Assembly: GCA_002368605.1 (NCBI GenBank)
Contig: DFEB01000051.1
Coordinates: forward strand, 14,924-47,816
Length of the DNA: 32,893 nucleotides
Reading direction: 5' to 3'
Source: Treponema sp. UBA3813
GTDB taxonomy: Bacteria > Spirochaetota > Spirochaetia > Treponematales > Treponemataceae
The notes beneath the pieces are model-generated. The model did not search any database and was not told where the DNA came from. It was given only the letters and a program-made list of their open reading frames with translations. Position numbers and translations under genes: made by a program. Within the stretch, counting starts at the first letter, position 1. Every line of letters begins with the position of its first letter. Positions 393 through 13,796 of this stretch are shown one piece after another.

Positions 393-419
393 TAAACTCC
401 GGTTCTTAAATTCCGATAA
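393..419 (+). promoter_or_regulatory. sigma-28 (FliA) promoter of flgN-flgK-flgL-fliW-csrA
   Basis: TAAACTCC at 393-400, an 11-bp spacer, then TCCGATAA at 412-419. The E. coli sigma-28 consensus is TAAAGTTT-N11-GCCGATAA, so the spacing is exact and the -10 box differs only in its first base. It lies 31 bases before the flgN start codon. Late-class expression fits genes for hook-filament junction proteins and their chaperone. Confidence 0.8.
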
Positions 420-4171: not shown

Positions 4172-4188
4172 AAATCATGGAGAATAAC

Positions 4189-4632
4189 ATGGATGTAAAG
4201 ACTAAGACAATGGGAACTGTTTCTGTTGATGAGAAAAATATCATTGACTTTCCCAACGGACTTCTTGGATTTGAAGATTTTCACAAATACGCCCTGATTG
4301 AGTCGGAGTACAAGCCCTTTTACTGGATGCAGTCTCTCGATGAGTCTTCCCTTGCTTTCCTTATCGTAGATCCCTTTATCATCGCCGAGCATTACGAGCT
4401 TGATGTGGATGATAAGGCTCTTTTTGAAATCGATGTGGAGTCAAGCGCGGATGTAATTGTCTGGGCAATCGTCACTGTTCCGGCTGACGGTGGCCCGGTT
4501 ACGGCAAACCTTCAGGGACCGGTCGTTGTGAACAAAAAGAACAATCTTGCTCTTCAGGTGATTCTGGCTGACACGAAATGGACGACAAAATACAACATTA
4601 TCAAAGCTCTCAAAGCGAAGGGGGCAAAATAA
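4189..4632 (+). CDS. fliW: Flagellar assembly factor FliW (CsrA antagonist)
   Basis: A 147-residue protein with the FliW hallmark [19 protein letters not shown] near residues 17-35 and [19 protein letters not shown] near 43-61. FliW binds flagellin or CsrA. Once free flagellin has been exported, FliW sequesters CsrA and relieves its block on flagellin translation. ATG 4189 is preferred over the in-frame ATG 4177 because GGAG at 4179-4182 is 6 bases upstream of 4189, whereas 4177 has no ribosome site. The stop TAA at 4630-4632 shares its last base with the csrA start (TAATG), indicating translational coupling. Confidence 0.94.
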
Positions 4633-4853
4633 TGCTTATATTGTCAAGAAAAGTCGATGAGAAAATCAAAATCGGAAATGATATATCGATTCAGATTATC
4701 GGAATCTCAGGCGATCAGGTAAAAATCGGCGTTGACGCCCCAAAGACCGTAAAAGTTTTCCGTCAGGAAGTTTATGACGATATTCAGCGGCAGAACCGTG
4801 AGGCGGCTCTTGGCTCAACAGCCCTGGACGCGCTCGCAAATTTGCTTTCTTAA
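4632..4853 (+). CDS. csrA: Carbon storage regulator CsrA
   Basis: A 73-residue RNA-binding protein with the family start [18 protein letters not shown] and the core [18 protein letters not shown]. The second conserved RNA-binding patch around the C-terminal Arg of the core ([11 protein letters not shown]) is present. CsrA dimers bind GGA motifs in hairpin loops and over ribosome sites. The start is ATG 4632; an upstream extension to 4578 would add 18 non-homologous residues overlapping fliW. GGGGG at 4619-4624 provides the ribosome site. Likely local targets are the flagellin leaders at 11639-11750 and 12889-12960. Confidence 0.96.
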
Positions 4854-10789: not shown

Positions 10790-11638
10790 CTAGCGGAGCA
10801 AAGCCAATACATTCTGTGACTGGCTGTTTGCCTGTGCGAGCATAGCTGTTCCAGACTGTGTAAGAATCTGGTTCTTTGTGTACTCAACCATTTCAGAAGC
10901 CATGTCTGTGTCACGGATGCGTGATTCAGCAGCCTGAAGGTTCTCGGCAGCAACACTTACGCCATTTGCAGCCATTTCAAAGCGGTTCTGGTATGCACCA
11001 AGATCTGCACGTTGTTTAGAAACACTTTTGAGTGCTTCATCAACAGTAGCGATTGCCATGTTAGCTGTGTCAGGTGTAGCGATTCCAATGCCCTCTTCTG
11101 ATCCCTGAGCGCCTTTGAGGCCGAGAGACTGAGCGGTCATGGTGCCGATATATACACGTTCGTTCTGGTCAACATTAGCTCCAATCTGGAACTGCATGAT
11201 GCGGTCTGAATTCTGAGAGAAGCTACCTGTAAGCATGTTCATTCCGTTGAACTGAGCCTGTGAAGCAATGCGATCAACTTCGGCAACAAGCTGTGAAACT
11301 TCTACCTGAATCTGCATACGGTCTTCGTCTGAATAGATACCGTTAGCTGACTGAACTGCGAGCTCACGGATTCTCTGGAGGATGTCTGTAGTTTCCTGCA
11401 AGTATCCTTCTGTAGCCTGGATAAATGAAACACCATTCTGGATGTTTCGGTTAGCCTGGTTCAATCCGCGGATCTGGCTGCGCATCTTCTCAGATACTGC
11501 CAATCCTGAAGCATCGTCGCCAGCTTTGTTAATGCGCTGACCTGAACTGAGTTTTTCGATGTTTCCCATTAACTGGTCGTTAGAAACGCCCAATGTGCGG
11601 TTAGCATACAAAGAACTCATGTTGTGATTAATTACCAT
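10790..11638 (-). CDS. flaB: Flagellin, FlaB type (copy 1)
   Basis: A 282-residue core flagellin. The N-terminus [19 protein letters not shown], the D0/D1 motif [22 protein letters not shown], and the C-terminus ending [12 protein letters not shown] are diagnostic. The short middle domain (no D2/D3) is typical of spirochaete FlaB filaments in the periplasm. There is no signal peptide, as expected for type III export. ATG 11638 is used, with GGAGGG at 11646-11651 as ribosome site; an extension to 11695 would add non-flagellin residues. It is a close paralogue of the gene at 12028 but has a different leader, with a terminator-like hairpin just before the ribosome site. Confidence 0.97.
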
Positions 11639-11656
11639 ATTTGTGCCCTCCATGAT

Positions 11657-11691
11657 AAAAAAAAGACAGATACAACATCGTGTTGTATGTC
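11657..11691 (-). promoter_or_regulatory. Terminator-like hairpin in flagellin 1 leader (attenuator or sRNA end)
   Basis: On the minus strand ATACAACA-CGA-TGTTGTAT forms a perfect 8-bp stem (11670-11688). GACA/TGTC can extend it across a 2-base bulge, and eight T follow at once (11657-11664). This is the layout of an intrinsic terminator, yet the flagellin ribosome site begins only 6 bases after the T run. An upstream ACAGAT (about 11695-11700) is complementary to ATCTGT in the 3' arm and could form a competing structure. Confidence 0.55.
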
Positions 11692-11709
11692 CCAATCTGT
11701 GCAGGCTGT

Positions 11710-11734
11710 CTTTCGGTTTTTGCGCCCCCGAAAG
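11710..11734 (-). promoter_or_regulatory. Second hairpin in flagellin 1 leader
   Basis: CTTTCGG and CCGAAAG form a 7-bp stem around an 11-base loop beginning GGGCG on the minus strand. It lies upstream of the terminator-like hairpin in the 389-base gap between the two flagellin genes. A further small inverted repeat (TGATGTG/CACATCA) is seen near 11850-11870. I see no convincing promoter in 11735-11980; TACAAT at 11928-11933 has a poor -35 partner. No open reading frame of note is present in the gap. Confidence 0.4.
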
Positions 11735-11981
11735 CGATTTAGACCTTTACAGCGGGAGACGATACTGAATAGCCTTGCCTTGTACAAAGGAATTCAACAT
11801 CAACTTACGCCGTCACAGAAAGCATGAAAAGCAATTTTCAAAGAACTGATGATGTGTCTAAATCCACATCAAAATGGTTTAAAGAAAACAGAAAAAAATC
11901 ACGGTTTTCCTGAATTCTGATGATTACATTGTAGCGGGATATTTGAAGAAAATAAAGAGGGTAGAGCAAAAATCCGCGCAA

Positions 11982-12016
11982 ATTCTTGAAAGAGCCTTTA
12001 AGACTCTTTCAAGAAT
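11982..12016 (-). terminator. 13-bp perfect inverted repeat after flagellin 2
   Basis: Arms ATTCTTGAAAGAG and CTCTTTCAAGAAT around a 9-base loop, starting 12 bases after the flagellin 2 stop codon. There is no long T run directly after it on the minus strand (TTGCGCGGATTTTT follows). It may therefore be an imperfect terminator or a 3'-end stabilising hairpin for an abundant message. Confidence 0.65.
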
Positions 12017-12027
12017 ATTATAATGCA

Positions 12028-12888
12028 CTATCGAAGCAAAGACAAGACATTCTGAGACTGCGTGTTTGCCTGAGCGAGCATAGCAGTTCCTGCCTGCTGG
12101 AGAACTTCATTCTTAGTGAATTCTACCATCTGCTGAGCCATATCGGTGTCGCGGATGCGTGATTCTGAAGCCTGAAGGTTCTCTGCTGCAACATCAAGAC
12201 CTTTAACTGCGTATTCCATGCGGTTCTGATAGCCGCCGAGGTCTGCGCGCTGTTTGTTGATCTTTTTGAGAGCCTCATCGATAGTACCGATTGCGCGGTT
12301 TGCCAATTCTGGTGTTGAAAGGCTCAGAATCTCTTCTGCTGCTACATCTCGTACGCCGAGAGCAGCTGCTGTCATTGTGCCGATGAATACCTGCATACGC
12401 TGATCCATGTTAGCTCCGATGTGGAACCACATAGATGATGTAACGGCATTCTCGCCAGTAGACTGTGCGAAGCGTCCTGTGAGCATGTTCATACCGTTGA
12501 ACTGAGCCTGTGAAGCAATGCGGTCAACTTCTGCAACGAGCTGAGAAATCTCAACCTGAATCTGCATACGGTCTTCATCTGAATAAATTCCGTTTGATGA
12601 CTGAACAGCAAGCTCACGGATACGCTGCATGATGTCAGTTGTTTCCTGCAAGTAGCCTTCTGCTACCTGAATGAAACTGATACCGTTCTGTGCGTTTTCT
12701 GAGGCTTTGTTGAGACCACGAATCTGGCTGCGCATCTTTTCAGATACTGCGAGTCCTGAAGCGTCGTCACCTGCGCGGTTGATTTTTTCGCCTGAAGAGA
12801 GTTTCTCCATGTCTTTTGAAAGACTGAGACCTGTTACGCCGAGCTGTCTGTCAGCGAACATTGCGGACATGTTGTGGTTAATGACCAT
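12028..12888 (-). CDS. flaB: Flagellin, FlaB type (copy 2)
   Basis: A 286-residue core flagellin with N-terminus [19 protein letters not shown], the motif [22 protein letters not shown], and C-terminus [12 protein letters not shown]. It is strongly similar to the copy at 10790 across both ends. The middle differs and carries a few extra residues (around [18 protein letters not shown]). It builds the periplasmic filament core. ATG 12888 has GGAGG 8 bases upstream. Its leader carries a sigma-28 promoter, a hairpin with GGA in the loop and the GGA-containing ribosome site, which points to CsrA control. The downstream inverted repeat separates it from copy 1, so the two are probably separate transcripts. 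Confidence 0.97.
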
Positions 12889-12915
12889 AGTGTTTTCCTC
12901 CGTGGAAATATGTTT

Positions 12916-12939
12916 CAGACCAAAATCCTTTTCGGCCTG
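12916..12939 (-). promoter_or_regulatory. Candidate CsrA-binding hairpin, GGA triloop, in flagellin 2 leader
   Basis: The minus-strand arm CAGGCCGAAAA and the arm TTTTGGTCTG pair with one G-T and one bulged G. They leave exactly GGA as the loop (complement at 12926-12928). A second GGA lies in the ribosome site CGGAGGA at about 12897-12903. CsrA dimers typically bind one GGA in a hairpin loop and a second over the ribosome site 10-60 bases away, as in the B. subtilis hag leader. The same window encodes CsrA and FliW. Confidence 0.65.
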
Positions 12940-13049
12940 TTTGAAAAAGGAAACTTCAGTATTACAAGGCTACATCCGTCTCCTTTTTCGTGACGCACTT
13001 GTTCAGTATTCTTCTACGAAGCTGTTCTGAGCATAGCTTGTCCTTATTA

Positions 13050-13077
13050 GTATCGGCTATGGTCTTTAGAAACTTTA
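13050..13077 (-). promoter_or_regulatory. sigma-28 promoter of flagellin 2
   Basis: The minus strand has TAAAGTTT at 13070-13077 and GCCGATAC at 13050-13057, 12 bp apart. The -35 box is identical to the E. coli FliA consensus and the -10 box matches 7 of 8, with the spacer one base longer than the usual 11. The predicted leader is about 155 bases, long enough to hold the CsrA hairpin. Confidence 0.82.
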
Positions 13078-13160
13078 GCAAAAAAATTCATTTTTTTTAA
13101 ATTTTTTTTCTAAAGTGAAGCGTAAAAAATGCCACAAGGGGATAAATATCTGCAAGCGTC

Positions 13161-13796
13161 CTAAAAAATGAGATTCTCCAAGACCTTCTTTATTGTCTGA
13201 ACGGCTTTTCCTCGGTGGGAGATTTTGTTTTTTTCTTCTGCGGAGATTTCTGCCACTGTTTTTTTGTATTGAGGAAGCCAAACGATCGGGTCGTATCCGA
13301 ATCCGCCTGAGCCAGCTTGTTTTTCGATTGAAGGAATTAACTCGCCTTCAAATGTCTCCTGAGCGACGAAAAATCTTTCGGGATTCAAGAGAAGAACCAT
13401 GGCGCAAGTGTAGTGGCAACTGCGGTCGCGCGAGCCCGTGGCGTTTAGTTGCTCTATAAGAAAGCGGTTCTGCTCTTCCTGGGAAATTTTGCTTCCGTCC
13501 GGCTTTCCGTGCATAAAATTCGGACCTGCATAGCGGGAAGTATAGATTCCCGGCTCTCCTTTCAATGCAGAGACGCATATTCCGGAATCATCTGCAATGA
13601 CCGGTTCATGCACGAGATTCCAGAGGGCGCGTGCCTTAATCAGTGAGTTCTCGTAGAAAGATTTTCCGTCTTCGATGGGGGCGAATTCAATTCCGTCATC
13701 ACTTGGAATTCTGATTTCAAAATCAGAAAGAAGCTCCTGCATTTCCTTTTGCTTGTGCTTGTTTCCTGACGCCAGGTACAATTTCTTTTTGTTCAT
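13161..13796 (-). CDS. rdgB: dITP/XTP pyrophosphatase RdgB (HAM1 family)
   Basis: A 211-residue house-cleaning enzyme that hydrolyses dITP, ITP and XTP to monophosphates, keeping deaminated purines out of DNA and RNA. It shows ASGNKHKQKEMQELL near residues 9-23 (the SGNxxK nucleotide-binding motif), PVIADDSGICVSAL with the catalytic Asp pair, GIYTSRYAG and GSGGFGYDPIVW, then ISHRGKA near the C-terminus. It starts 9 bases after the preceding gene, with AGGA overlapping that gene's stop region as ribosome site. It is thus probably transcribed from the same sigma-54 promoter. The sigma-28 promoter of flagellin 2 lies after its stop codon. Confidence 0.95.
   Translation of the reverse strand: MNKKKLYLASGNKHKQKEMQELLSDFEIRIPSDDGIEFAPIEDGKSFYENSLIKARALWNLVHEPVIADDSGICVSALKGEPGIYTSRYAGPNFMHGKPDGSKISQEEQNRFLIEQLNATGSRDRSCHYTCAMVLLLNPERFFVAQETFEGELIPSIEKQAGSGGFGYDPIVWLPQYKKTVAEISAEEKNKISHRGKAVQTIKKVLENLIF

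Follow-up and report, generated by a model that had tools for sequence, protein, structure and literature searches.

The window analysed here is a 32,893-nt stretch of a contig of Treponema sp. UBA3813. It contains a tandem pair of flagellin genes on the minus strand and, on the plus strand, the cluster flgN-flgK-flgL-fliW-csrA, which it shares with T. denticola (PMC9481697). The relevant features, in window coordinates, are:

393..418 (+), candidate promoter before flgN, a relaxed sigma-28 type match (pattern match)
4189..4632 (+), fliW (Pfam PF02623, 2e-39)
4632..4853 (+), csrA, 73 aa (Pfam PF02599, 2e-24)
10790..11638 (-), second flagellin of the tandem, 282 aa from ATG 11638 (Pfam; the scan took a longer ORF start than this ATG)
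11646..11653 (-), Shine-Dalgarno region of the second flagellin, AUGGAGGG, with a single ANGGAG (sequence)
11670..11688 (-), hairpin of the second flagellin leader, loop ACGAU (ANGAN, no GGA) (fold, relatives)
12028..12888 (-), first flagellin (FlaB type), 286 aa, leading the tandem pair (Pfam Flagellin_N and Flagellin_C)
12894..12908 (-), H2, short hairpin UUUCC-ACGGA-GGAAA, predicted CsrA-type site 2 (fold)
12897..12901 (-), Shine-Dalgarno GGAGG of the first flagellin (sequence)
12916..12939 (-), H1, 10-bp hairpin with loop AAGGAU, predicted CsrA-type site 1, GGA at 12926-12928 (fold and compensatory changes)
13051..13077 (-), sigma-28 type promoter TAAA-N16-GCCGATA (sequence match; the transcription start is placed from the promoter position only)

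The closest named records to the first flagellin are those of Treponema sp. RGIG1479, with 95% identity, and T. ruminis, with 92%, and judging from its position and the T. denticola order flaB1-flaB3 it is probably FlaB1. A third flagellin gene of the same genome lies on a separate contig, unlinked to the tandem pair. An earlier note on this DNA had placed a sigma-28 promoter before the first flagellin, which it numbered 2, and such a promoter is indeed present as the sole exact match to TAAA-N16-GCCGATA in the window, as against 0.06 expected from shuffles; by its position, the leader would be ~155 nt in length. Among the 75 related leaders that have at least 250 nt of upstream sequence, 47 carry a relaxed sigma-28 form (0.32 in shuffles) and 28 have none by this pattern. 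The T. denticola flaB1 promoter, in contrast, is described as sigma-70 type (PMC9481697). Between the promoter and H1, at 12963-12971 (-), ~75-83 nt 5' of the flagellin start, we also observed AGCCTTGTA, which is present in 67 of the 84 related leaders introduced below.

The Pfam matches bear out the reading of 4189-4853 as FliW and CsrA. The earlier note had also placed another sigma-28 promoter ahead of these genes; a relaxed match does occur at 393-418, but it is situated before flgN rather than directly before fliW, and from this placement it would serve the entire flgN-flgK-flgL-fliW-csrA operon. The csrA product contains L4, R6, V42 and R44 (E. coli numbering), which we take to be the RNA-contact residues. 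On this assignment the contact residues are intact, and they are likewise kept in all 30 CsrA proteins read out of the 91 found. Across the genus csrA was detected in 91 of 98 genomes, and in the order fliW neighbors csrA in 29 of 30 genomes, with 18-75 nt between the Pfam matches. In one genome with a 99% complete assembly (G184), which has the flagellin hairpin, neither fliW nor csrA was found, reflecting either an assembly gap or genuine loss. For T. pallidum TP0658 a FliW-flagellin interaction has been reported (PMC2386257).

The H1 and H2 hairpins in the window and in relatives

The RNA from the promoter to the ATG folds into three main parts, the last two of which are H1 and H2. On its own H1 has a folding energy of about -10.7 kcal/mol. 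The hairpin that the earlier note had drawn at 12916-12939 is recovered with its stem of 10 bp, but the loop, held to be exactly GGA, folds as an AGGA tetraloop atop an A-U pair, i.e. AAGGAU in CsrA terms. The second GGA that it had located in the ribosome site is found at 12899-12901, inside the Shine-Dalgarno GGAGG and 15-17 nt beyond H1. A further feature, absent from that account, is that this GGA sits in the loop of a hairpin of its own, namely H2, which in the leader context forms five pairs with the loop ACGGA over the Shine-Dalgarno sequence, and is part of the minimum-energy fold despite a weak stem (-2.9 kcal/mol). The GGA-to-GGA spacing is 27 nt in the window, and among the 84 related leaders it falls within 22-27 nt in 75. 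For the leader region as a whole (12880-13042) the fold z is -3.3, with 1 of 200 shuffles equally good, and a search of 11500-13300 against Rfam 15 matched no family up to E 1.

Within the window by itself H1 is unremarkable: the 33 kb hold 30 hairpins with a stem of at least 7, one of them with the loop triplet GGA, and since 30 such hairpins are spread over 64 possible triplets a single ANGGAN hairpin is unsurprising. As the window alone thus gives no excess over chance, the claim for H1 rests on comparison with relatives. To this end we used 84 leaders of the first-flagellin class, the window included, from named and unnamed relatives, a set defined by the Shine-Dalgarno pattern alone that omits most minus-strand loci of the genus (the genus-wide count of 93 of 98 given below is independent of this omission). 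A GGA lies within 60 nt before the Shine-Dalgarno pattern in all 84; in 77 the last GGA before it belongs to a stem of at least 6, and in 79 the same last-GGA rule gives an A-N-GGA loop with the second letter free. With the GGA fixed by construction through anchoring on A-N-GGA, the inner pairs of H1 are formed in a mean of 6.91 of 7 across 66 distinct sequences, as against 4.59 with the arms swapped (maximum 5.05 in 2000 swaps), and when 48 of the 72 distinct leaders were aligned with the same anchor, all 8 H1 pairs counted had changes on both sides and H1 and H2 jointly had 149 both-side changed cells versus 43.6 in shuffles. Because this anchor makes the GGA constant in the alignments, it is the count of 84 of 84 within 60 nt that provides a free check on it. 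An independent set from outside the genus (30 of 31 leaders) gave, under the same anchor, 5.83 of 6 pairs formed versus 4.24 when swapped (maximum 4.87). Judged from these sequence comparisons, H1 is a structure under selection.

A covariance model built from H1 and H2 (R1) gives one match at E <= 0.01 in the window's genome, the runner-up being at E 0.36. Within the genus 93 of 98 genomes have a match, among them all 45 with better assemblies, and the 30 best genus matches read as loci all lay before a flagellin start. In the order R1 matches 104 of 194 genomes. Among the matches fetched, all 24 first matches from the rest of the family lie at a flagellin start, and 19 of 31 from other families precede one, which argues that the weak matches are partly due to chance. 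Phylum-wide, 46 of 149 genomes were matched, those beyond the order weakly. Leaders of the order were scored by folding (counting of contiguous stems skips hairpins with a mismatch), and by this loose test, which 36 of 155 shuffled leaders also pass, all 31 leaders of the first tandem flagellin, from 30 genomes of which R1 had missed eight, contain a GGA-loop hairpin. The hairpin lies 32-42 nt 5' of the start in 30 of these leaders, and at 73 nt in the remaining one (G100). Outside the genus the hairpin core is GCAAGGAUGC or similar, which is near the CsrA consensus RUACARGGAUGU as quoted in PMC8668096.

These data also dispose of the view that H1 is a chance hairpin close to the ribosome site. 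One long-stem ANGGAN hairpin per 33 kb is about the chance frequency, and the looseness of the fold test would favor such a view; however, every counted H1 pair shows compensatory changes in two separate sets, and the hairpin keeps its distance from the start in all but one of the order leaders. The covariation refutes this explanation, to which we assign practically no probability, and the position and covariation of H1 in relatives are beyond chance. The expectation of the earlier note, that the stem would change in a compensatory manner around a fixed GGA, is realized in the aligned leaders, with fliW-csrA accompanying them.

Support for H2 is weak. In relatives, both sides of two outer pairs vary, three pairs are constant and one is broken a single time, the inner four pairs being invariant or nearly so; beyond the family its upstream half is mostly absent. 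It might be argued that H2 acts alone, with the Shine-Dalgarno region opening and closing unaided (e.g. with temperature) and H1 as a bystander, in line with the presence of H2 in the minimum-energy fold and the both-side changes in its outer pairs. Yet its stem is weak and is missing from most leaders of other families, where H1 is kept, and we regard this as a very improbable account.

Among the weaker R1 matches that were read (six in the genus and several in the order) none lay before a flagellin. The idea that they represent CsrA-decoy RNAs was dropped, as the hairpins are few, with E of 2e-5 to 7e-4. In one genome (G264:C64, L251) three 110-nt direct repeats on the reverse strand near 312, 422 and 531 each bear the hairpin AACGCAACACGGATGTTGCGTT; these could possibly be CsrA decoys or a terminator-like repeat. 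In T. parvum (L252) and a further genome (G049, L187) an intergenic stretch has the hairpins CACGGATG and CAAGGATG in series, with no flagellin following. In two first-flagellin leaders (L045 and L046) the stretch from H1 to H2 holds, by eye, an additional GC-rich inverted repeat whose loop contains GGA, and these leaders perhaps have three CsrA sites.

A predicted CsrA-operated switch and its known counterparts

The sequence comparisons show both GGA sites, the selection on H1 and the co-occurrence of fliW-csrA. We consider it highly probable that the first flagellin leader is a translational switch operated by CsrA and relieved by FliW; that CsrA binds and represses, that a single dimer spans both sites and that FliW exchanges partners is modeled on other organisms. 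In such a switch, one CsrA dimer would hold the GGA of the H1 loop and, at the ribosome site, that of H2, and by bridging them would hide the Shine-Dalgarno sequence, thereby blocking flagellin translation. FliW from the flgN-flgK-flgL-fliW-csrA operon would remove CsrA unless held by unexported flagellin, such that translation would track export. The CsrA-leader interpretation of the earlier note is thus supported, with CsrA binding itself proposed by analogy.

That note had likened the leader to B. subtilis hag, where the sites are BS1 (A51-A55) and BS2 (C75-G82) (Yakhnin 2007 and Mukherjee 2011, cited in PMC8523840). The comparison holds as to kind: both systems have a pair of sites, the downstream one at the Shine-Dalgarno sequence, with a spacing near 27 nt, and fliW adjoining csrA (PMC8523840), whereas the sequence, the host phylum and the external flagella of B. 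subtilis differ. As the closest parallel, however, hag gives way to the flaA leader of C. jejuni, with two stem-loops that each contain ANGGA, the second over the ribosome site; both bind CsrA and each is needed for tight binding (PMC4894983). The two ANGGA stem-loops, the compensatory changes and the sigma-28 promoter recur in the Treponema leader, as would, by analogy, the FliW antagonist. On the other hand, C. jejuni flaA has a 45-nt leader and there is one major target flagellin (PMC4894983), as opposed to ~155 nt, three flagellins and periplasmic flagella in Treponema.

CsrA control of flagellin is already known, spirochaetes included, and the main switch confirms a known principle. In Borrelia burgdorferi CsrA is reported to block flaB translation at the Shine-Dalgarno sequence (Sze et al. 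2011, cited in PMC3757020); both are spirochaete flagellins, but B. burgdorferi is described as being without sigma-28 (PMC11607428). In Leptospira, flaB3 and flaB4 have a GGA hexaloop at the ribosome site, and a CsrA gel-shift and a flgN-flgK-flgL-fliW-csrA promoter construct are reported; this system differs in having one site, 6-7 nt before the start, and in an effect whose direction varies between two Leptospira species (PMC8668096). For T. denticola the authors state in their discussion that CsrA sites lie near the Shine-Dalgarno sequences of flaB1 and flaB2 (PMC9481697). In the open-access literature we found no description of the Treponema leader hairpins reported here. What is new is the order-wide covariation and the difference between the leaders of the first and second flagellins.

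As a side observation, the ribosome site of fliW (4179-4189, (+)) contains AUGGAG, an A-N-GGA-G motif, and self-regulation by CsrA through this site is conceivable.

Divergence of the second and third flagellin leaders

The second flagellin leader (11639-11694) has a hairpin unlike that of the first. In 76 of 82 leaders of the second-flagellin class the loop is C-ANGAN-G and lacks GGA, with GGA loops in the other 6. The ANGA stem covaries strongly: 95.9% of its cells are paired, 5 of 6 pairs change on both sides, and the covariation is 0.789 versus 0.234 shuffled. The ANGA leaders have AUGGAG at the Shine-Dalgarno sequence, a motif that partly defines the class. Since 49 of the 76 have a GGA elsewhere, at points ranging from 45 nt 5' of the hairpin to the Shine-Dalgarno sequence, often ~10 nt before it, a residual CsrA site in these leaders is possible.

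The existence of an equally covarying stem without GGA points to some selection on leader stems that is independent of GGA, and lends a degree of plausibility to H1 being a hairpin for mRNA stability or processing, or the site of another RNA-binding protein, with a loop GGA that CsrA does not read. A plain stability hairpin, however, has no need of a GGA, and in the first-flagellin class this is correctly placed in every leader; moreover, the prevailing A-N-GGA loop with its free second letter is the pattern of the C. jejuni CsrA site (PMC4894983). The presence of CsrA in nearly all genomes of the genus likewise argues against a non-CsrA role. We therefore hold this explanation to be improbable and retain the CsrA-operated switch for the first leader.

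Outside the genus, second-flagellin leaders have the GGA-loop hairpin in 26 of 30 cases (family 11 of 14, beyond it 15 of 16; one family genome, G205, is excluded from this count), and ANGA-type second leaders also occur in two other genera (G124 and G209). The unlinked flagellin has the GGA-loop hairpin in 6 of 14 leaders within the family, in 12 of 13 outside it, and in none of those of the genus set (0 of 10, including L003). From this distribution of paralogues in and outside the genus, the older state was likely one with GGA on all three flagellins, followed by stepwise loss. On a tree of 67 loci built by a quick method, 2 changes are required to account for which second leaders are GGA and which ANGA, and as the well-supported branches force just 1, a single change is possible.

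Spirochaete filaments comprise several flagellins in fixed proportions, and if CsrA reads only some of the flagellin mRNAs, one regulator could at once couple supply with export and determine the mixture. We tentatively propose, with rather more doubt than confidence, that all three flagellin mRNAs of the order once had CsrA hairpins and that the lineage of the window split their control: the first would have kept its GGA, the second would have gone from ANGGA to ANGA with its stem still selected, and the unlinked gene would have lost its hairpin. On this view the ANGA hairpin might be a CsrA site of naturally reduced strength that sets the ratio of filament proteins, or the site of another protein. 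In this respect the second leader resembles, as a change made by evolution, the GGA to UGA mutation of SL1 in C. jejuni, which together with other mutants raised the Kd four- to tenfold (PMC4894983). The flagellin leaders hence offer a natural series with GGA on three genes, two or one, and this paralogue difference is the part of our findings likeliest to catch a specialist's eye. We also observed one genome (G255, contigs C86 and C35) with two tandem flagellin pairs, both of which have GGA hairpins.
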